Assembly (NCBI RefSeq): GCF_028623165.1
Contig: NZ_CP117768.1
Span: 3,720,001-3,784,000 of the forward strand
Reading direction: 5' to 3'
DNA from: Nostoc sp. UHCC 0926
GTDB taxonomy: Bacteria > Cyanobacteriota > Cyanobacteriia > Cyanobacteriales > Nostocaceae
Length of the DNA: 64,000 nucleotides
Made by a program: the position numbers and the translations under genes. The notes under the pieces were generated by a model. That model saw only the letters and a program-made list of their open reading frames with translations, searched no databases and was not told the origin of the DNA. Shown one piece after another: positions 7,698-59,999 of this stretch (position 1 is the first letter of the stretch; every line of letters begins with the position of its first letter).

Positions 7698-8976
7698 AAT
7701 TATAATTTGGACACCTAAGTAACCGTAAAAAGAATAAATTATGCAGGAAAAATGTCCAGCTTTACTCTTCAGAAAGCTAGTTCTACAAGAATATTTAATT
7801 TCAATTTCCTTCAATTATTAGAACAGTATATTCAATAATTAATCAGATATTTTTAACCCAATAAATAATATTTTTGACACGAAGTAGGAAGGAATTGCAA
7901 GATTCGACAACGTTCTTCTGTCAAGTTAATAATTCGCTTAACTCCTTGCATAATCAGAACGTGAATTCCTTGAAGGCATTGAAATATCCACCGCAAAGGA
8001 GGACGTTCAGTTAATTTATTTACTTGGTTTTTAACTGTGGCTTTTTCGGTTTTTAAAGAGCTTCTTAGTTGTCTTTGTCCTAGATTATAAACCAAAAGAC
8101 ATAATCCCATTAACATCATCATTGTCTCTACTCTTTCTGGATTTTTCACAAAAAGACTATCTGCAAAAAATAAAGGATCTTTGATAAACCTAAATCCTCG
8201 CTCTGAGGATTGCTGCTGTTTATATATTCTCAGTATTTCTGGGGCTGATAACTCTGTTAGCTCCAAAATATTAGTTGCTAAAATAAATCTCCCAGAAGAG
8301 TTTTGATTTTCGCTAATTAATTCCTGATTTTCTCTCAAATCACCTGTAACTTTATAAAGTACTTTTTTATCTTTAATTTGCCGCTCAATAATTTGGACTT
8401 CCGAAATTTTATGATATTTTAGTTTGGACTCAAGTTCTTGAATTCTAGATATCGCTAACGATGGCTGTTCAAATTCCTCGGCAGCTAATTTAGCTATTTG
8501 TTTTCCAATTTTCAGGAATTCTTCATTAATTTTTTGTGTTAATTTCTTCAGATCTGCTTTTTTTCTGTCTTCACTTTCTACTTAGAAACAAATCCAAGTC
8601 CATTCAAAATAATTGTTTTGACGACTTCCCCGGCACTAACTCTTTCCCTAGTATCGGTTCCTAGCAGGTCATTGATTTTCTCTACTATTCCTATCTCATC
8701 AACAATTCCAGCTACTATTCCTAAATGATCCAAATTTTTAATGAATGTTTCTTCTTTTTGATGATTCATTTTTTTCGATTTTATTTATGAAAGCTTCCTC
8801 CTGATTTTCTCACTTTTTTACAAATAACAATACTTTTAACAGTTCGCCTAAGTTTAGCTTTTACAACGATCGCACGCCTACCAACTGTTGTCAGTATTAA
8901 TACTAGGGGGGCTTCTGATTATTAGTAATATTAGTTGAAACATCAATGTATTGCATTCTGAAGTGCGGAATGTGGG
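7641..8976. mobile_element. Internally deleted IS4-superfamily (IS1634-like) insertion sequence
   Basis: The element is bounded by 18-bp perfect inverted repeats, CCCACATTCCGCACTTCA at 7641-7658 and its complement at 8959-8976, 1336 bp overall. It carries both ends of a transposase but not the middle, so it cannot move on its own. The flanks belong to different genes (AraC-type regulator left, cobW right) and show no matching target duplication, which points to a deletion or recombination between copies after insertion. Confidence 0.75.
7853..8769 (-). pseudogene. Transposase remnant of the IS1634-like element
   Basis: Two fragments remain. The first, 8578-8769, gives 63 N-terminal residues with NLDHLGIVAGIVDEIGIVEK and VSAGEVVKTIILNGLGFVSK, the usual start of IS1634-type transposases. 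It ends at a stop. In a different frame, from about 8581 down to 7853, follow some 240 C-terminal residues, including a coiled-coil-like stretch, an SSERGFRFIKDPLFFADS block that contains the C-terminal catalytic region, and VETMMMLMGLCLLVYNLGQR. Intact members have around 550 residues, so roughly 250 central residues are deleted, and the join also shifts frame. Confidence 0.7.
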
Positions 8977-9235: not shown

Positions 9236-9618
9236 AATGTGTAGAAAAAAGTTTTAACCGCAGATATCACGAAGTAGAGATGTGTGACGAAGTTCAATTT
9301 CGCCTCTTTACTAATTCGCAGGTGATATGGAAGGGCATTTAATTTATTGGGCACGAACATTAGCCAAATAAATAAGTGTATCAATCTTTTTTGTGAATAG
9401 TTACGCCAAAAAATTAGCATAAGCGATGTTTACGACGGGCTACGCCTACACAATTTGTGTGAGTTTTTGACCTAGCGATCGCAATTATAAATAGACATAG
9501 GAGTGAAAATTAATTCTGCGTAGACATCTAAGGGCATTTTGCACATTTGGGATGCTCCCGGTTTTAGAGAGGGCGACAAATTAGCAATAAATTATTTTCC
9601 GTGAATTCTTGGTGGTTG

Positions 9619-9786
9619 CCTGAATTCAACAAACAACTCCCCGAATTCAATAAACAACTGCCCGAATTCAATAAACGACTGCCCGAATTTAATAAACGAC
9701 TACCCGAATTCAATAAACGACTACCCGAATTCAATAAACGACTGCCCGAATTCAATAAACGACTGCCCAAATTCAATAAACAGCGG
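9619..9786. repeat. Tandem array A: eight 21-bp units
   Basis: Eight contiguous units with a consensus of CCCGAATTCAATAAACGACT plus G. Units differ by one to four bases; the first and last are most diverged. Because 21 is a multiple of 3, frames stay open on both strands and give artificial heptapeptide ORFs. No gene is associated. Confidence 0.95.
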
Positions 9787-10380
9787 CGATAAGGGACTTC
9801 CAGTTAAAAAAACATCCCATCGTAGGGGCGCAAGACCTTGCGCCCCTACAAATGTACAAATAATTTTGGATAATTTATTTTTTGCTATACCAATTCGCTA
9901 TGAAGATGCACTTAATTTTTATTAAACGAACCGCCCTTCGGGTGACGCTCGTTGCGCTAAAGCGTCTCCCTTTGGGAGAAGACTCGCTAACGCTGCGCTA
10001 ACACCAGTCGCCTACGGCAGGAAACCCGCCTACAGCGCTGGTTCACCAAGTACGCCAAATACGCCAAGGAAGAAGGAATAATCATTAAGTGCAAGTTTAG
10101 GGAGAATTGGTATTAGTCCCTAATGTTGGTTTAGCCGCGTTCAGCACTAGTTCAGTCTTTTTCTCAAATTCTGCATCTTGTTTACCTTTACAAAGTCAGA
10201 AGCTAGATGTCTAACGCTACCGTTGCCATTGCTCACTTCTTCGGCAGATATAGCCTCAAGTTGTGGCTGGCAACCCCACAGCCTGGTCATCAGTCGCAGC
10301 AGTAGCCTTCGTGGGAAAGACCAATAAATGGAAACTCAAAATTGGTCATCATGCGTAGGCGCAGCCCGCCGCAGGCTTCG
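9787..10380. repeat. Intergenic region rich in short dispersed repeats
   Basis: At 9824-9851 there is a palindrome, TAGGGGCGCAAGACC and its near-complement, equal to the core of the 96-bp MITE. Around 9940-10040 and 10350-10380 lie GC-rich short palindromes of the kind scattered in Nostoc genomes. Between 10130 and 10320 there is possibly decayed coding sequence that I cannot assign. Confidence 0.6.
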
Positions 10381-35310: not shown

Positions 35311-37935
35311 ATGCGTTTATCTCCCGTATTGCTGGCAGCAGTAGCAATTGCAGTCCCTTTGGGCGGTTCATTGAGTGCAAATGCAGAAACCGCCAACAGT
35401 TCAAAACAGACAACAGAAGTTTTGACACTAGAAAAAAATCAGCAGCCAGAAAAGGATACTGGTCAGGGTAACTCTAGTAAAAGTCTAGTATCTCGACCTA
35501 ATCCCACAAGAGTTATAGAGGGGGAGCCTCTCCAATCCCGCATTGTCGCAATTTACCCTGCCAATCCAGCAGCGAGCGCGACATCAAAGGTAATAGTACC
35601 AACCTCCACAACGCCAACAACTGCACAAACCCCTCAAATTAATCCCAGCCCTACTCAACAGCCATCTCCCGCTCCAGACATTCCACCGCCAGAAATTCAA
35701 CAACCAACGCCTTCCTCAACTCCTGAAACCACTCCAGTCCCAGAAAATGTCAATCCACCGACAACGGAACCTTTATTACCCACAACTCCGGAACCATCAG
35801 CCACTCCAGACATTCCCCCCCCAGCTAGTCAACAAAGAACACCTGCCTCACGCCCAGGCGCTACTCCCAGTCCGCAGAATATTAACCCGCCGACAACTCC
35901 GGGAAATACTCAACCCAACACAGCCCCAGGCGCTACTCCCAGTCCACAGAATATTAACCCGCCGATAACTCCGGGAAATACTCAACCCAACACAGCCCCA
36001 GGCGCTACTCCCAGTCCACAGAATATTAACCCGCCGACAACTCCGGGAAATACTCAACCCAACACAGCCCCAGAAGCCAATGACCCCCGCGTACTGGTAT
36101 CAGAAGTAGTAATTAGATCACAGGCTGGGCAACTATCACCAGAATTAGAAGACCAAGTTTACAAAGTAATTCGTACCCAACCAGGACGAACGACAACCCG
36201 TAGCCAACTACAAGAAGATATTAACGCCATCTTTGGTACTGGCTTCTTCTCCAACGTCCAGGCAACGCCAGAAGATACCCCCTTGGGAGTGCGGGTCAGC
36301 TTTGTTGTGCAGCCTAACCCCGTCCTCAGCAAAGTAGAAGTGCAAGCCAATCCTGGCACTGGTGTTGCTTCTGTACTACCAGCTAATACTGTGGATGAAG
36401 TATTTCGGGAGCAGTATGGCAAAATCCTCAACTTGCGTGACTTGCAAGAAGGCATCAAGCAGTTAAACAAGCGATATCAAGACCAAGGTTACGTGCTAGC
36501 CAACGTGATTGGAGCGCCCCAAGTCTCTGAAAACGGAGTTGTTACGTTGCAAATAGCAGAAGGGGTAGTAGAGAATATTAGAGTCCGGTTCCGTAATAAA
36601 GATGGTCAGGAGACAGACGAGAAAGGACAACCGATTCGGGGACGCACACAGGATTACATCATTACACGAGAATTGGAGTTGAAGCCAGGACAAGTATTCA
36701 ATCGCAACACAGTGCAAAAAGACCTACAGCGCGTGTATGGAGTGGGACTGTTTGAGGATGTGAATGTGTCCCTTGACCCTGGTAGTGACCCCAGCAAGGT
36801 GGATGTAGTAGTGAATGTAGCTGAACGCAGCAGCGGTTCTATTGCAGCTGGGGCAGGGATTAGTTCTGCTAGCGGACTTTTTGGAACAGTAAGCTATCAA
36901 CAGCAAAATTTGAACGGTAGAAACCAAAAGCTGGGGGCAGAAGTACAGGTGGGAGAACGGGAACTGCTGTTTGACCTGCGGTTCACAGACCCCTGGATTG
37001 CGGGAGATCCCTACCGGACTTCTTACACAACAAATATTTTTCGCCGCAGTTCCATTTCATTGATTTTTGATGGCAAAGATGAAGATATTAGGACGTTTGA
37101 CCCAGATAATCCCACTAATACAAATTCTCAGGATCGCCCCCGCATTCTCCGTATAGGTGGTGGTGTCACCTTTACCCGTCCCCTGTCCTCCAATCCTTAC
37201 AAAACTTCCGTCTGGACTGCCTCAGCGGGTTTACAGTATCAACGAGTTTCTGCCCGTGATGCTGATGGCAATCTCAGAAAAACAGGAGCGGTATTTGATG
37301 ATGATAACGGTATCCGCACCAGTGATGAAATTCCACTGACTTTATCTAGCAGCGGTCAAGACGATTTACTACTGCTGCAACTGGGGGCACAGCGCGATCT
37401 CCGGAATAACCCCCTGCAACCCACCAGTGGATCTTATCTCCGCTTCGGGGTTGATCAGTCGGTCCCTGTGGGGTTAGGCAGCATTTTCCTCACCAGATTC
37501 CGGGGTAGCTACAGCCAATATTTACCCATCAAGCTGATTAGCCTCAGCAAAGGGGCACAAACCTTAGCATTTAATCTGCAAGCAGGAACCATCTTCGGTG
37601 ACTTGCCTCCCTACGAAGCTTTTACCCTTGGCGGTAGCAACTCCGTCCGGGGTTATGAAGAAGGAGCATTAGCTAGTGGACGCTCTTATGTGCAAGCATC
37701 AGTTGAGTATCGGTTCCCAGTTTTTTCAGTAGTCAGCGGCGCACTATTTTTTGATGTCGGCAGTGACTTGGGAACTAGTACTAGGGCAGCTGAAGTGTTG
37801 AACAAAAATGGTAGTGGCTTCGGCTATGGTCTTGGCGTTCGCGTCCAGTCTCCACTGGGGCCTATTCGGATTGACTATGGTATCAACGATGACGGTGATA
37901 GCCGAATTAATTTCGGTATTGGGGAAAGGTTTTAA
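35311..37935 (+). CDS. Omp85/BamA-family outer-membrane protein
   Basis: This 874-residue protein inserts beta-barrel proteins into the outer membrane. It has a signal peptide (MRLSPVLLAAVAIAVPLGGS), a proline-rich linker (about 90-255), POTRA domains (about 260-480, e.g. LVSEVVIRSQAG, NKRYQDQGYVLANV) and a C-terminal barrel with GGSNSVRGYEEGAL near 780 and a terminal FGIGERF. The linker contains three tandem copies of a 24-residue unit (35858-36073). The neighbours lpxC-fabZ-lpxA-lpxB make lipid A, so the cluster serves outer-membrane construction, as in other cyanobacteria. Confidence 0.93.
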   Translation: MRLSPVLLAAVAIAVPLGGSLSANAETANSSKQTTEVLTLEKNQQPEKDTGQGNSSKSLVSRPNPTRVIEGEPLQSRIVAIYPANPAASATSKVIVPTSTTPTTAQTPQINPSPTQQPSPAPDIPPPEIQQPTPSSTPETTPVPENVNPPTTEPLLPTTPEPSATPDIPPPASQQRTPASRPGATPSPQNINPPTTPGNTQPNTAPGATPSPQNINPPITPGNTQPNTAPGATPSPQNINPPTTPGNTQPNTAPEANDPRVLVSEVVIRSQAGQLSPELEDQVYKVIRTQPGRTTTRSQLQEDINAIFGTGFFSNVQATPEDTPLGVRVSFVVQPNPVLSKVEVQANPGTGVASVLPANTVDEVFREQYGKILNLRDLQEGIKQLNKRYQDQGYVLANVIGAPQVSENGVVTLQIAEGVVENIRVRFRNKDGQETDEKGQPIRGRTQDYIITRELELKPGQVFNRNTVQKDLQRVYGVGLFEDVNVSLDPGSDPSKVDVVVNVAERSSGSIAAGAGISSASGLFGTVSYQQQNLNGRNQKLGAEVQVGERELLFDLRFTDPWIAGDPYRTSYTTNIFRRSSISLIFDGKDEDIRTFDPDNPTNTNSQDRPRILRIGGGVTFTRPLSSNPYKTSVWTASAGLQYQRVSARDADGNLRKTGAVFDDDNGIRTSDEIPLTLSSSGQDDLLLLQLGAQRDLRNNPLQPTSGSYLRFGVDQSVPVGLGSIFLTRFRGSYSQYLPIKLISLSKGAQTLAFNLQAGTIFGDLPPYEAFTLGGSNSVRGYEEGALASGRSYVQASVEYRFPVFSVVSGALFFDVGSDLGTSTRAAEVLNKNGSGFGYGLGVRVQSPLGPIRIDYGINDDGDSRINFGIGERF
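35858..36073 (+). repeat. Three 72-bp tandem repeats in the Omp85 linker
   Basis: Each unit encodes 24 residues beginning GATPSPQNINPPTTPGNTQP. The copies differ at only a few bases, so they arose recently. They lengthen a proline-rich, probably periplasmic linker between the signal peptide and the first POTRA domain. Confidence 0.95.
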
Positions 37936-47804: not shown

Positions 47805-49763
47805 ATGACAAATGACTTACAAATTAAATTGAGTTGGGAAGATCCGGCGACGGGAGAACGGCGAGAACCAATGTTGAGTATGCCGATCGCTTTTGGTCGA
47901 GAATTTGCTCGTTTACCTGCTGAACTCAGGGGAGGGCGGGTTTCTAGGATGCTGCTTAACAGTAACGAAGTTTCTCGCTATCATGCCCTAATTGACTGGG
48001 AACAAGACCATTTGGTGGTGATTGACCAAGGTAGCGTTAACGGTGTGTATGTCAACGGTCAACCACAAACCCGCAGTGTCTTGGTTAATGGCGATACGTT
48101 GCAAATTGGCCCCTATGCGATCATGGTGACATTTGCTGCTAGCGCCTCTGCACCAGATACCACCCCCCCTTCAACGATTCACTTCAATGCAAAGACCAAT
48201 CTCCCAGACCCCAGTTTGCCTGTAGTTCAGCCGCTAAGTCCCTTGGCAAGTAATTTCCCGCCATTAGCGTTTCAGGCAGAAAAAGTCGCTGTGCAAGCAC
48301 TTCATGCTACGGGTTTACCAGTAGATGAATCTGATTATCTAGCGATCGGGGCGGGACTGGGTAGCTTTTTTTGGGCTAATTTGTTGCGAATTAGTGGTGT
48401 GCGTGCTGACAAAATTGTAGCTTTAGGATTAGAGGGGCAGCCCTATGCTCGTTACAAGCGCCTGTGTTTGAATTCGCAAATTCCCTTACATGAAAGACTG
48501 CGATCTAATTCTGACTCTTGTCCTGATAATATTTGGGGCTGGCCTAGTTATGCCTTGCGTGAGGCTTGGCACGATTTCACCAAAGGAGAGATGAAGTCAG
48601 CATTCAAGTATTTGTGGCAAGTCTTTGCTGAACCAACATTTGCAGAAACTTATACTCCGCGTGCGGGTAATGTCTTTGATTCCATAGATAGGGAGGCGAA
48701 GCGGATTGGCTGGAATCAAATTTATCGCTATGGGCGAGTTAGGGTAATTCGCAAAACTGATGATGGCAGGTATTGCGTAGCCTATTCTCGTGGGCCAGGA
48801 AATTATGCTTTTTTAGTTACTCGTTATTTACATTTAGCTACTGGGTATCCAGCAATTCAGTTTCTCCCAGATTTGCAAACTTATAGGGAAAAATATCAAG
48901 ACTTTAAATCTGTCGTCAATGCTTATGAAGCCCATGATCATGTTTATGAGCAACTAGAGCAACGAGGTGGTACAGTATTGATTCGTGGACGGGGAATTGT
49001 GGCTTCGCGGATTATTCAACGGATTTATGAAGCCAGAAAGCGAAATCAGAATATTGCAGTTTTGCATTTAATGCGATCGCCTAAACCCCAAGGCAACAAA
49101 TTTCAAAATACCCAGCGCCTAGTCAAAAATCATTACGAATTTCAACCCTTTAACTGGCCGAAAGCTTGTTGGGGCGGCGAACTCCGGGCAATGTTAGAAA
49201 AAGCCACCCCTGATGAACGCAAGCGTTTACTAGCAGACTGGGGTGGAACTACCACCGCCGACCGCCACGACTGGCAACAAATTACTGCCCAAGGGATCAG
49301 CGAAGGTTGGTATCAAATTACCTTCGGAGAGGTTTTGGATGTAGAACGAGATGCCCAAAATCGGACTATTACCCGTATCCGAGAGCAAAGCTTTGGGGAA
49401 ATGAAATTGCTAGCTGACTTTATTGTTGATGCTACTGGACTGGATGCCAAAGTAGATGCCAATCCTCTAATAGCAGATTTGGTGAAACATTACAACCTCC
49501 CAGTGAATCACCTGGGGCGATTGGCTGTAGCGAACAATTTTGAATTAGTAGAAATGCGTAGTGATAAAGGTCAAATGTATGCTGCTGGGGCTATAACTCT
49601 AGGTGGCCCTTATGCAGCAGTTGATAGTTTTTTGGGCTTGCAATATGCCGCATTAGTCGCCGTTGATGGACTCGCCGCTGGACGTGCGCCTGGAGTTCAA
49701 AAGTTGAATGTTGTAAGTTCCTTTGGGCAGTGGTTGAAGTGGGTGTTAAATCAGTCACCTTAG
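47805..49763 (+). CDS. FHA domain fused to an FAD/NAD-dependent oxidoreductase-like domain
   Basis: The 652-residue protein starts with an FHA domain (about 20-110: AFGREFARL, SNEVSRYHALIDW, DQGSVNGVYVNGQ). After a Pro/Ser linker comes a Rossmann-type domain beginning near 178: YLAIGAGLGSFFWANLLRIS, a GxGxxG-like site. Later parts resemble flavin-dependent oxidoreductases, with IVDATGLDAKVDANP and a GGPYAAVDSFLGLQYAALVA end. It joins phosphothreonine recognition to a probable redox or nucleotide-dependent enzyme. The FHA/zinc-ribbon gene precedes it by 42 bp. Confidence 0.8.
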   Translation: MTNDLQIKLSWEDPATGERREPMLSMPIAFGREFARLPAELRGGRVSRMLLNSNEVSRYHALIDWEQDHLVVIDQGSVNGVYVNGQPQTRSVLVNGDTLQIGPYAIMVTFAASASAPDTTPPSTIHFNAKTNLPDPSLPVVQPLSPLASNFPPLAFQAEKVAVQALHATGLPVDESDYLAIGAGLGSFFWANLLRISGVRADKIVALGLEGQPYARYKRLCLNSQIPLHERLRSNSDSCPDNIWGWPSYALREAWHDFTKGEMKSAFKYLWQVFAEPTFAETYTPRAGNVFDSIDREAKRIGWNQIYRYGRVRVIRKTDDGRYCVAYSRGPGNYAFLVTRYLHLATGYPAIQFLPDLQTYREKYQDFKSVVNAYEAHDHVYEQLEQRGGTVLIRGRGIVASRIIQRIYEARKRNQNIAVLHLMRSPKPQGNKFQNTQRLVKNHYEFQPFNWPKACWGGELRAMLEKATPDERKRLLADWGGTTTADRHDWQQITAQGISEGWYQITFGEVLDVERDAQNRTITRIREQSFGEMKLLADFIVDATGLDAKVDANPLIADLVKHYNLPVNHLGRLAVANNFELVEMRSDKGQMYAAGAITLGGPYAAVDSFLGLQYAALVAVDGLAAGRAPGVQKLNVVSSFGQWLKWVLNQSP

Positions 49764-49833: not shown

Positions 49834-50106
49834 AGGTTCAAAGGCTCAACATTCGAGTAAAAAGGCTCAACGTTCGAGTAAAAAGGTGCAACGTTCGAGT
49901 AAAAAGACTCAACGTTCGAGTAAAAAGGTGCAACGTTCAGGCTCAAAGGCTCAACGTCGAGGTTAAAAAGCTCAATGTTGAGGTTCAAAGGCTCAACGTC
50001 GAGGTTCAGAGGCTCAACGTTGAGGTTCAGAGGTTCAACGTTGAGGTTCAGAAGCTCAACGTTCAGGTTCAGAGGTTCAACGTTGAGGTTCAAAAGCTCA
50101 AAGTCT
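49834..50106. repeat. Tandem array B: thirteen 21-bp units
   Basis: Units fall in two types: GAGTAAAAAGGCTCAACGTT plus C on the left (units 2-5), and AGGTTCAGAGGCTCAACGTT plus G on the right (units 6-13). All have exactly 21 bp. Translations on both strands are open only because of the period. Confidence 0.95.
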
Positions 50107-50585: not shown

Positions 50586-52298
50586 ATGAAACTCGATCAC
50601 AAGCTCTACCTGTATTCATTTTTAGCTCATTTCGGATGGCTCAAGAAAAGTTACACCGCTAAAATCATGTTGGTGGCATTTTTGGGCACTCATGTACCAC
50701 TTCTGACCTTACTCTTGAGTTTCGTCATCTCAAACTCCTATTCCTTGGAGATGGCGGTGCGAGTTATGATCATTGCTCTGTTGGCTACGTTAGCGGGTAC
50801 GGCCGCCACCCTCTACGCCCTACACTACCTCCTCAAACCGGTCATTTTGACATCTGCTGCATTGCAAAACTACCTCAATACCAAAACACTACCTGAACTG
50901 CCTACAGAATTTGTTGATGAAGCGGGTACCTTGATGGCGGATACCTCACAAACTCTTCACAAATTAGATGAGTTAATTCACTACATCACTAATTATGATG
51001 ATCTAACTGGATTGCCCAATCGTGATTTATTCCGCGATCGCCTCTATCAAACTCTATCCCAACCTGAAAACAAACAGCGCCTTGTAGCTGTCTTTTTCCT
51101 GGCCATTGATGATTTCACTGATATTAGTCATGGGTTGGAGCATGAGACAACAAATTTGTTGTTAAGAGCAGTTGCTCATAGGTTATCAACCTGCATGACG
51201 CAAACAGATATTCTTGCCCATTTAAGTGGAGATGAATTTGCCCTTGCCCGCATTAACATTCATTCTTTTGAAAATGTGATTAAGTTATCTCAGGTGCTGT
51301 TGAGTACTCTGAGCAAACCCTTTTTTCTAGAGGGTAACTCGATTCATCTCACCGCTAGCATTGGTATCACAATTAATGACTTAAATGATCCTAATAGTGT
51401 AGATAAACTCTTGCAACAGGCTCACATAGCACTCTACCAAGCGAAGCAGCAAGGGCGTAGCCAATACCAATTCTATTCGCCAGAAATTAATGCTCAGTTG
51501 CAGGAGCGATTGACTTTAGAAAATGAATTACATGGAGCGCTTGGGCGCAACGAAATGCTGGTTTATTATCAACCTCTAATTGATTTACACAGCGGACAAG
51601 TTACAGGTATGGAAGCGTTAGTTCGCTGGCAGCATCCTACCTTCGGTTTGGTTTCTCCAGTAAAGTTTATTCCCATTGCAGAAGCCAATGGTTTGATCGT
51701 ACCAATTGGTGAATGGGTCTTGCGAACTGCTTGCGCCCAAAACCGGGCTTGGCAGCTTGCTGGATTTACCCCAATTCGGATATCTGTGAATCTGTCAGCT
51801 CGACAGTTTGAACAAGCAAATCTAGTTGAGGTCGTCAGCCAGATTCTTGAGGAGACTGGACTCCAAGCATCTTACCTGGAACTGGAAGTGACAGAAAGCT
51901 TCTTGATGGGTGACATTGAGCGATCTGTTAAAACTTTAAAACAATTACGAGAACTGGGTATATGGTTGGCTCTAGACGACTTTGGCACCGGTTATTCCTC
52001 GCTGAACTACTTGAAGCGCTTTCCTGTGAACATGCTCAAGATTGATCAGTCATTTGTGCAGGATGTCATATCTAATCCTGATAGCGCCGCCGTCACCGAT
52101 GCGATCATTGCCCTAGCAAAGAGCCTCCGGTTGAAGATCACGGCAGAGGGTGTGGAAACCCAAGAACAGCTTGAATACCTGCAAATGCGAGGATGTGATG
52201 AAGGTCAGGGTTTCTACTTTAGTCGTCCTGTTCCTGCTGATATAATTGCTGCAATGTTGCACAAAAGTTCTCAGCAGATGGAGACAATTGCAGCATAG
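50586..52298 (+). CDS. Membrane GGDEF-EAL protein
   Basis: The 570-residue protein has two N-terminal membrane spans (IMLVAFLGTHVPLLTLLLSF and VMIIALLATLAGTAATLYAL), a HAMP-like helix, a GGDEF domain (about 135-300) and an EAL domain (about 310-560). The cyclase signature is LSGDEFALAR (SGDEF rather than GGDEF). The EAL domain has MEALVRWQHP, the metal-binding ESFLMGD region, LALDDFGTGYSSL and KIDQSF, so c-di-GMP hydrolysis is the more likely activity. It stands alone. Confidence 0.92.
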   Translation: MKLDHKLYLYSFLAHFGWLKKSYTAKIMLVAFLGTHVPLLTLLLSFVISNSYSLEMAVRVMIIALLATLAGTAATLYALHYLLKPVILTSAALQNYLNTKTLPELPTEFVDEAGTLMADTSQTLHKLDELIHYITNYDDLTGLPNRDLFRDRLYQTLSQPENKQRLVAVFFLAIDDFTDISHGLEHETTNLLLRAVAHRLSTCMTQTDILAHLSGDEFALARINIHSFENVIKLSQVLLSTLSKPFFLEGNSIHLTASIGITINDLNDPNSVDKLLQQAHIALYQAKQQGRSQYQFYSPEINAQLQERLTLENELHGALGRNEMLVYYQPLIDLHSGQVTGMEALVRWQHPTFGLVSPVKFIPIAEANGLIVPIGEWVLRTACAQNRAWQLAGFTPIRISVNLSARQFEQANLVEVVSQILEETGLQASYLELEVTESFLMGDIERSVKTLKQLRELGIWLALDDFGTGYSSLNYLKRFPVNMLKIDQSFVQDVISNPDSAAVTDAIIALAKSLRLKITAEGVETQEQLEYLQMRGCDEGQGFYFSRPVPADIIAAMLHKSSQQMETIAA

Positions 52299-55366: not shown

Positions 55367-55599
55367 TGAGAATTACTTGGGAATATATTTGCTTTTCTTG
55401 TGCCCATTTTCTTGAGCGTGATAAGTAAGCCTGAGGATAATCCCTGTTCTTCTTGGTGATGGTGCGAAGTGTGACTGCTGCTACCTTCTCCTTTGTAGCG
55501 CCGCGTTTTACTAAAGCTTTCATTACTAGGGGATATATCTGATTTACTAGAGTTTACCTCAATATCCCATAGCCCTTAGTACAGCATTTCATTAATTCT
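55367..55599. other. Intergenic stretch without a recognised gene
   Basis: No convincing coding or regulatory feature. It leads into the repeat cluster at 55600-56061. Confidence 0.4.
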
Positions 55600-55760
55600 A
55601 GGACTTACGCAAAAAACCTCTCAAACTCTTATTCCTCCGTGTCGCGCCAGTTACTTCTCCTAAGGGAGACGCTGCGCGAACAAGTTGGGGAACCGCAAGG
55701 GCGCACTGGCTTCTCTGCGTCCTCTGTGGTTCGATTTTCCGTTACCTGTGCGTAAGTCCT
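55600..55760. mobile_element. 161-bp MITE-like element
   Basis: Bounded by perfect 12-bp inverted repeats, AGGACTTACGCA and TGCGTAAGTCCT. The interior is non-coding and includes a short GGGAGACGCTGCGCGAACAA palindromic repeat. Size and ends resemble MITEs of Nostocales. Confidence 0.7.
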
Positions 55761-55793
55761 GAATTCGTAGCGAATTAATCAAAGACAATACCC

Positions 55794-55961
55794 TGCAATG
55801 CTAATGCATCGGCTTGCATTGTTAATGCGTCGGCTTGCATTGTTAATGCATTGGCTTGCATTGTTAATGCGTCGGCTCGCATTGTTAATGCGTCGGCTTG
55901 CATTGTTAATGCGTCAGCTTGCATTGTTAATGTATCGGCTTGCAATGTTAATGCGTTCCCC
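55794..55961. repeat. Tandem array C: eight 21-bp units
   Basis: Consensus TGCATTGTTAATGCGTCGGC plus T, each unit 21 bp, with one to five differences. Array A also has eight units. It directly abuts the 96-bp MITE that begins 5 bp later. Confidence 0.95.
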
Positions 55962-55965
55962 TGCA

Positions 55966-56061
55966 TTACAGCAGAATTCAAGTATTTGAACTACATCTGT
56001 CGTAGGGGCGCAAGGCCTTGCGCCCCTACCGCGTGGTCTATTTACCTGAAAATAGCTGTAA
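55966..56061 (-). mobile_element. 96-bp MITE, copy 2
   Basis: Inverted relative to copies 1 and 3: begins TTACAGCAGAATTCAAG and ends CTGAAAATAGCTGTAA. Same length and central palindrome. Confidence 0.85.
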
Positions 56062-56307
56062 AAACCCTACGCTTCTACGTAAAACTGTACTTAGCTATTA
56101 CTAGAGTTTATCCTGTTTCTCTCCTAGTCCTCTAGGAACCACTTGAACATGTCATTACCTTTGCTCCCAATATTCCCAATAACCGCACCTTTACCGACGG
56201 ACACCACTACCGTCATCAAGATTAAAATCTCTTAACCTTTCGTTACACTAAAGACATCGAGAAGGAGGAAAGCAAACCTCTCGAAGCTGAAATCAAAGGT
56301 GAACGAC
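56062..56307. other. Promoter region of the site-2 protease gene
   Basis: About 245 bp without a gene. AAAGG at 56296-56300 is a suitable ribosome binding site for the ATG at 56308. Confidence 0.4.
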
Positions 56308-59907: not shown

Positions 59908-59999
59908 CACACTGGTGAGAAGAGAGCTAAATCTCATCCGATTTTAGATGAAACAATCGGCGATTAATCCAAAATCCAAAATCCAAAATCCAAAATTCT

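Follow-up and report, generated by a model that had tools for sequence, protein, structure and literature searches.

Intergenic tandem arrays that share a 21-bp unit length across unrelated sequences in Nostoc

Throughout the genome of Nostoc sp. UHCC 0926 there are intergenic variable-number tandem repeats (VNTRs), to all appearances non-coding, that form a class with a unit fixed at 21 bp whatever its sequence, the periods of 42 and 63 bp being higher-order 21-mers. The unit length would most likely be set by the way in which the arrays are amplified. The unit lengths of bacterial non-coding tandem repeats are usually regarded as accidents of slippage. Here, more than nine tenths of the sizeable intergenic arrays have one unit length across 13 unrelated sequence families, so that the question of how minisatellite units acquire their length can be put to the test, the alternatives being a fixed-step generator and a selected spacing. 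The arrays also provide ready-made markers for Nostoc strains.

Three arrays of the window and the genome-wide distribution of periods

The window, that is, the whole stretch of 64,000 nucleotides that we analysed, carries three tandem arrays, A, B and C, each placed between larger open frames (Table 1). The neighbours of array B are an FHA-domain gene (47805-49763) and a GGDEF/EAL gene (50586-52298). A sequence-only reading of the window had described three 21-bp arrays of unrelated sequence, two of them with eight copies. TRF bears out this description, with close to eight copies in A and C and a position for A within a few bases of that first given; with register and strand chosen for the best fit, the units of A, B and C differ from one another by 11-13 mismatches over 21 positions, which is the level of shuffled units. 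The units are contiguous and the unique spacers of a CRISPR array are not found. Another tandem repeat of the window, three copies of a 72-bp unit at 35853-36073, lies inside a long open frame (35311-37935) that is proline-rich by eye.

Table 1. Arrays A, B and C and the small elements around array C (window coordinates; arrays delimited with TRF)
Feature	Position	Unit or ends	Remarks
Array A	9617-9781	period 21, 7.9 copies of TGCCCGAATTCAATAAACGAC	intergenic
Array B	49834-50101	period 21, 12.8 copies of AGGTTCAAAGGCTCAACGTTG	
Array C	55794-55956	period 21, 7.8 copies of TGCATTGTTAATGCGTCGGCT	largest family
MITE-like element carrying array C	55575-56094	ends CTTAGTACAG (55575-55584) and CTGTACTTAG (56085-56094)	
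Second small element, left arm	55600-55760	ends AGGACTTACGCA / TGCGTAAGTCCT	nesting deduced from intact left arms elsewhere
Third small element, right arm	55968-56060	ACAGCAGAATTCAAG to AAAATAGCTGTA	contains dispersed palindrome GTAGGGGCGCAAGGCCTTGCGCCCCTAC

Array periods were counted in 120 blocks of 20 kb from the same chromosome which, together with the window, amount to 2.46 Mb or 30% of the 8.3-Mb genome. With a TRF score of at least 80, this sample holds 47 arrays of period 21, 23 of period 42 and 5 of period 63, and none of period 18, 19, 20, 22, 23, 25 or 26. Nearly all are intergenic (43 of 47, 20 of 23 and 5 of 5, respectively) according to a home-made, strict gene caller that covers 57% of the DNA and misses some genes. 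When only sizeable intergenic arrays are retained (at least 100 bp and 3.5 copies, period of 63 at most), 53 of 57 have a period of 21 (36 arrays), 42 (15) or 63 (2), and two of the four others have periods of 41 and 62. The sequence-only reading had asked for a genome-wide search of this kind, in which a wide spread of periods would have spoken against it; the peak at 21 is sharp. That A, B and C have this period in common is expected in this genome and is not peculiar to the three of them.

The sample contains 64 intergenic arrays of at least 80 bp, which extrapolates to a total of roughly 200 for the genome. Two periods are dominant in the intergenic arrays with 3.5 or more copies: 7 bp, found in 86 arrays, and 21 bp, found in 39. 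The orientation of the arrays with respect to neighbouring genes shows no clear difference from the intergenic background. The 21-bp peak recurs in two further genomes of the genus (G007 and G015, 200 kb each), with four arrays of period 21 and two of period 42 in the former and four and one in the latter, or 6 and 5 arrays of 21n per 200 kb, a few of the arrays counted being short or possibly coding. No such peak was seen in plasmid stretches of eight cyanobacteria (50 kb each, plasmid DNA only).

Sequence families, dispersal and copy number

Sequence-based clustering of the units yielded families of 22, 11, 11, 3, 3, 2 and 2 arrays and six singles, hence 13 families. The family medoids differ by a mean of 11.09 mismatches, against 11.06 for dinucleotide-shuffled units. 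We found no remote homology between the 13 families beyond that seen with shuffles, and intermediates are not in excess. Only length, and not sequence, is common to the families. Since the families are unrelated and the unit is nevertheless almost invariably of exactly 21 bp, something other than shared sequence fixes its length. The suggestion of the sequence-only reading that the common unit is not due to chance holds genome-wide over the 13 dissimilar families, and for this reason a shared generating mechanism, as it proposed, or a shared constraint can fairly be inferred.

The family of array C (family 1) is the largest, with its 22 arrays in 2.46 Mb. The unit of array A has no relative in the sampled 2.46 Mb of its own genome; its family occurs in 20 of the 39 genomes searched, all of the same genus, and at up to 13 places in a single genome. 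The AGTCTTTGAACTCCGTGAACG family extends to other families of the order and to a Fischerella plasmid, on which a 6.8-copy array lies between annotated genes; family 3, compared between Nostoc and a Fischerella plasmid, has 21-bp units in both at 73% identity. Among 149 genomes of the order, the CAATGC family turned up in its own genome only; the genus is probably represented in this sample by that genome alone, and the result shows only that the family does not extend far past the genus.

Array C sits within a MITE-like element, in the arms of which two further small elements appear to be nested (Table 1). Both ends, CTTAGTACAG and CTGTACTTAG, surround 10 of the 22 family-1 arrays, C included; array C and these nine other arrays can be classed as minisatellites carried by a MITE. 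Families 2 and 3 lack common ends or flanks within 70 bases and do not fall into this class. The dispersed palindrome GTAGGGGCGCAAGGCCTTGCGCCCCTAC is present twice in the window, at 9817-9849 and 56000-56030, as part of a repeat some 95 bases long, and a 401-base query containing it has 75 matches in the genome. An open frame with a DDE transposase domain match lies at 7853-8338; it is probably a fragment, and its relatives are IS1634-family transposases on cyanobacterial plasmids.

Copy number appears to shift by whole units between close relatives. The near relative L149 of genome G039 is 96.5% identical over the window region. In G039, array A has five units (eight here), array B about two units at the same place (12.8 here) and the family-2 array at L071 3224-3475 about four (12 here), the last with a length difference of 168 bp or 8 x 21; G039 was assembled from a metagenome in short contigs, including ones that end in arrays, and some of this loss may be assembly collapse. 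The comparison of copy number between strains suggested by the sequence-only reading thus points to differences by whole units, in this one metagenome assembly. The arrays display the features of VNTRs or minisatellites, being non-coding tandem units of about 10-100 bp in variable copy number, the last feature coming from the same single assembly.

In the arrays' own genome, 384 successive anchors are spaced at 21 bp and about 6 are off by one. Flanking and intergenic DNA shows 0.07 to 0.18 indels per substitution; from about 220 distinct substitutions, 16-39 indels would be expected in the arrays, and the probability of six or fewer is 0.004 to 1e-10. Small indels would then be rarer in arrays than substitutions predict, but this deficit is suggestive only, because arrays homogenise and the substitutions counted in them do not arise independently of one another.

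The persistence of one array is also worth considering. At another place, an uncharacterised 120-aa gene is preceded by an A-type array that has orthologs in nine relatives, with left flanks 79-95% identical. These nine orthologous arrays have 6-9 counted units, and all steps are of 21 bases except in L134, where a 9-base deletion lowered the unit count. In the genomes listed both for an A-type match and for a match to this flank, an A-type match adjoins the flank (coordinates compared by eye). The lasting presence of this array in the relatives examined could mean selection. The sole domain match of the conserved gene (L131 995-1529, with its upstream array) is Flagellin_C, below threshold.

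What sets the unit length?

Are the arrays short genes for tandem heptapeptides, such as coiled-coil heptads? This idea was at first attractive: a stretch of seven codons is exactly 21 bp long, the units can be read through in several frames, and heptad-like peptides occur among the translations (LPEFNKR in array A, SLTELKD). Tests of variation and the positions of stops led us to discard it, and we regard it as most improbable. Over 36 arrays, synonymous variants are not enriched in any open frame (Fisher p 0.94); only in array A does the variation look synonymous, with a p of 0.003 in a series of 36 tests. None of 29 arrays falls below 0.05 in a three-base phase test, and at 20 A-type loci of the genus the synonymous variants number 75 for 61 +- 17.5 expected (p 0.23). 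Stops interrupt the unit at several A-type loci (L133, L136, L137, L138, L141 and L142), several orthologous A-type arrays have no nearby start codon (by eye), the majority unit of the family-1 array L042 contains a TAG in the frame that is open in relatives, and the family-3 array on the Fischerella plasmid has no gene annotation. Within-array variation is without codon pattern, and the arrays look non-coding. Conserved RNA structure was likewise rejected as a candidate: the mean folding z is about -0.6 and the hairpin z 0.94 +- 0.2, both weak and inflated by related arrays. Rfam gave two matches only, both in L131 and far below gathering scores.

Twenty-one base pairs correspond to two helical turns, and the sequence-only reading saw in this a way of placing each unit on the same face of DNA. 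A putative nucleoid or regulatory protein would bind once per 21 bp on one face, and selection would hold the register while the sequence drifts. Such binding would be consistent with a unit length conserved while sequence differs, with the apparent shortage of small indels and with the A-type array kept beside the same gene; 21 is, moreover, the smallest common multiple of 7 and 10.5. However, the 10.5-bp harmonic expected of phased binding is absent when one unit per family is taken (z 0.1 for A/T and 0.9 for purines). The A/T and purine harmonics seen over all 60 arrays, with z up to 8.5, vanish under this restriction and are a product of family structure. Other same-face periods are rare (five intergenic arrays of 10-11 bp, one of 31-32 bp), the commonest intergenic period, 7 bp, is out of phase, no motif is common to the families, and arrays B and C are not kept intact even in the nearest relative. 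Helical phasing, the part of the earlier proposal that involved a bound protein, thus receives no positive support, and we think this explanation unlikely. The same low weight goes to descent alone, in which a single ancestral 21-bp array would have kept its register as substitutions erased all similarity. The families of 22, 11 and 11 arrays do show dispersal with divergence, and family 3 shows that 21 bp can be held from Nostoc to Fischerella, but similarity between families is exactly at the shuffled level and intermediates are not in excess. Finally, tiny mobile elements of the REPIN or SDR type could have inserted head to tail. RAYT-associated REPINs are present in Nostoc punctiforme, where small dispersed repeats are named alongside them (PMC3116915), and the hairpin potential of our units is slightly raised (the z value given above). 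Yet most units are weakly palindromic, the direct repeats are contiguous and without spacers, and families 2 and 3 have no common ends or flanks, all of which make this origin very unlikely.

We therefore favour amplification as the determinant of unit length. An array would be born from one or two seed units. Slipped-strand pairing or unequal exchange would then lengthen or shorten it, propagating only in-register units. MITEs would carry some arrays to new sites, and others would arrive by an unseen, flank-free route. Unit length would then be set by the amplification process itself, which in this genome would yield mainly periods of 7 and 21 (3 x 7) bp in intergenic DNA; this last step is the weakest of the chain and, taken by itself, conceivable if somewhat short of probable. 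A 3 x 7 substructure is visible by eye in family-2 units, and not generally. Over the 21-bp units as a whole, a 7-bp substructure is not found (lag-7 autocorrelation z 0.36 +- 0.20); the purine 7-bp harmonic has a z of 2.4 per family, uncorrected. We also considered seeding by adjoining 7-bp repeats, seen by eye at some family-3 arrays; a control dismissed this idea, since 7-bp arrays are not enriched beside 21-bp arrays (3 of 60, versus 3% for random intergenic DNA). In the absence of both general substructure and adjacency, the 3 x 7 relation is arithmetic that suggests descent without demonstrating it. A 7-bp process also leaves the rarity of 14 and 28 unexplained. More tentatively still, a process or constraint in Nostoc may measure 21 bp as such, making or keeping only units of this length, with any sequence, at some 200 intergenic sites per genome.

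Relation to known repeats

The class belongs to the bacterial minisatellites, some of them borne by MITEs; its unusual point is the constancy of unit length combined with free sequence. We found no description of a 21-bp class among the open-access papers that the search covered. The nearest structural parallel for array C and the other family-1 arrays is BrickBuilt, a minisatellite within a MITE of Porphyromonas gingivalis, where a spacer-free, head-to-tail unit is likewise enclosed in a small element with inverted-repeat ends (PMC4596501). BrickBuilt has one 23-nt unit, whereas the Nostoc arrays have many unrelated 21-bp units and are mostly outside recognised MITEs.

Marine Beggiatoaceae carry intergenic TAACTGA direct repeats which, like our arrays, occur at many intergenic places scattered in a bacterial genome with one fixed unit length (PMC4679880). 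Their sequence is constant, whereas only length is constant in the Nostoc arrays. Borgs, the extrachromosomal elements of archaea, also contain many independent and rapidly evolving tandem arrays per genome (PMC9879509). A single locked unit length is not noted in the abstract of that paper, and the archaeal, extrachromosomal setting differs from that of the Nostoc arrays.

Heptameric repeats of the STRR type are abundant in Nostoc and are found in other bacteria too (PMC4692102). Like them, our arrays are intergenic and tandem, and 7 bp is also the commonest intergenic period in the present genome. Unlike them, the arrays described here have units of 21 bp and extend over 100-340 bp, with neither a 7-bp unit nor a clear, general 3 x 7 substructure. 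The window itself offers one example of the common 7-bp arrays of this genome, a perfect heptamer array, (AATCCAA)4.4, at 59966-59996.
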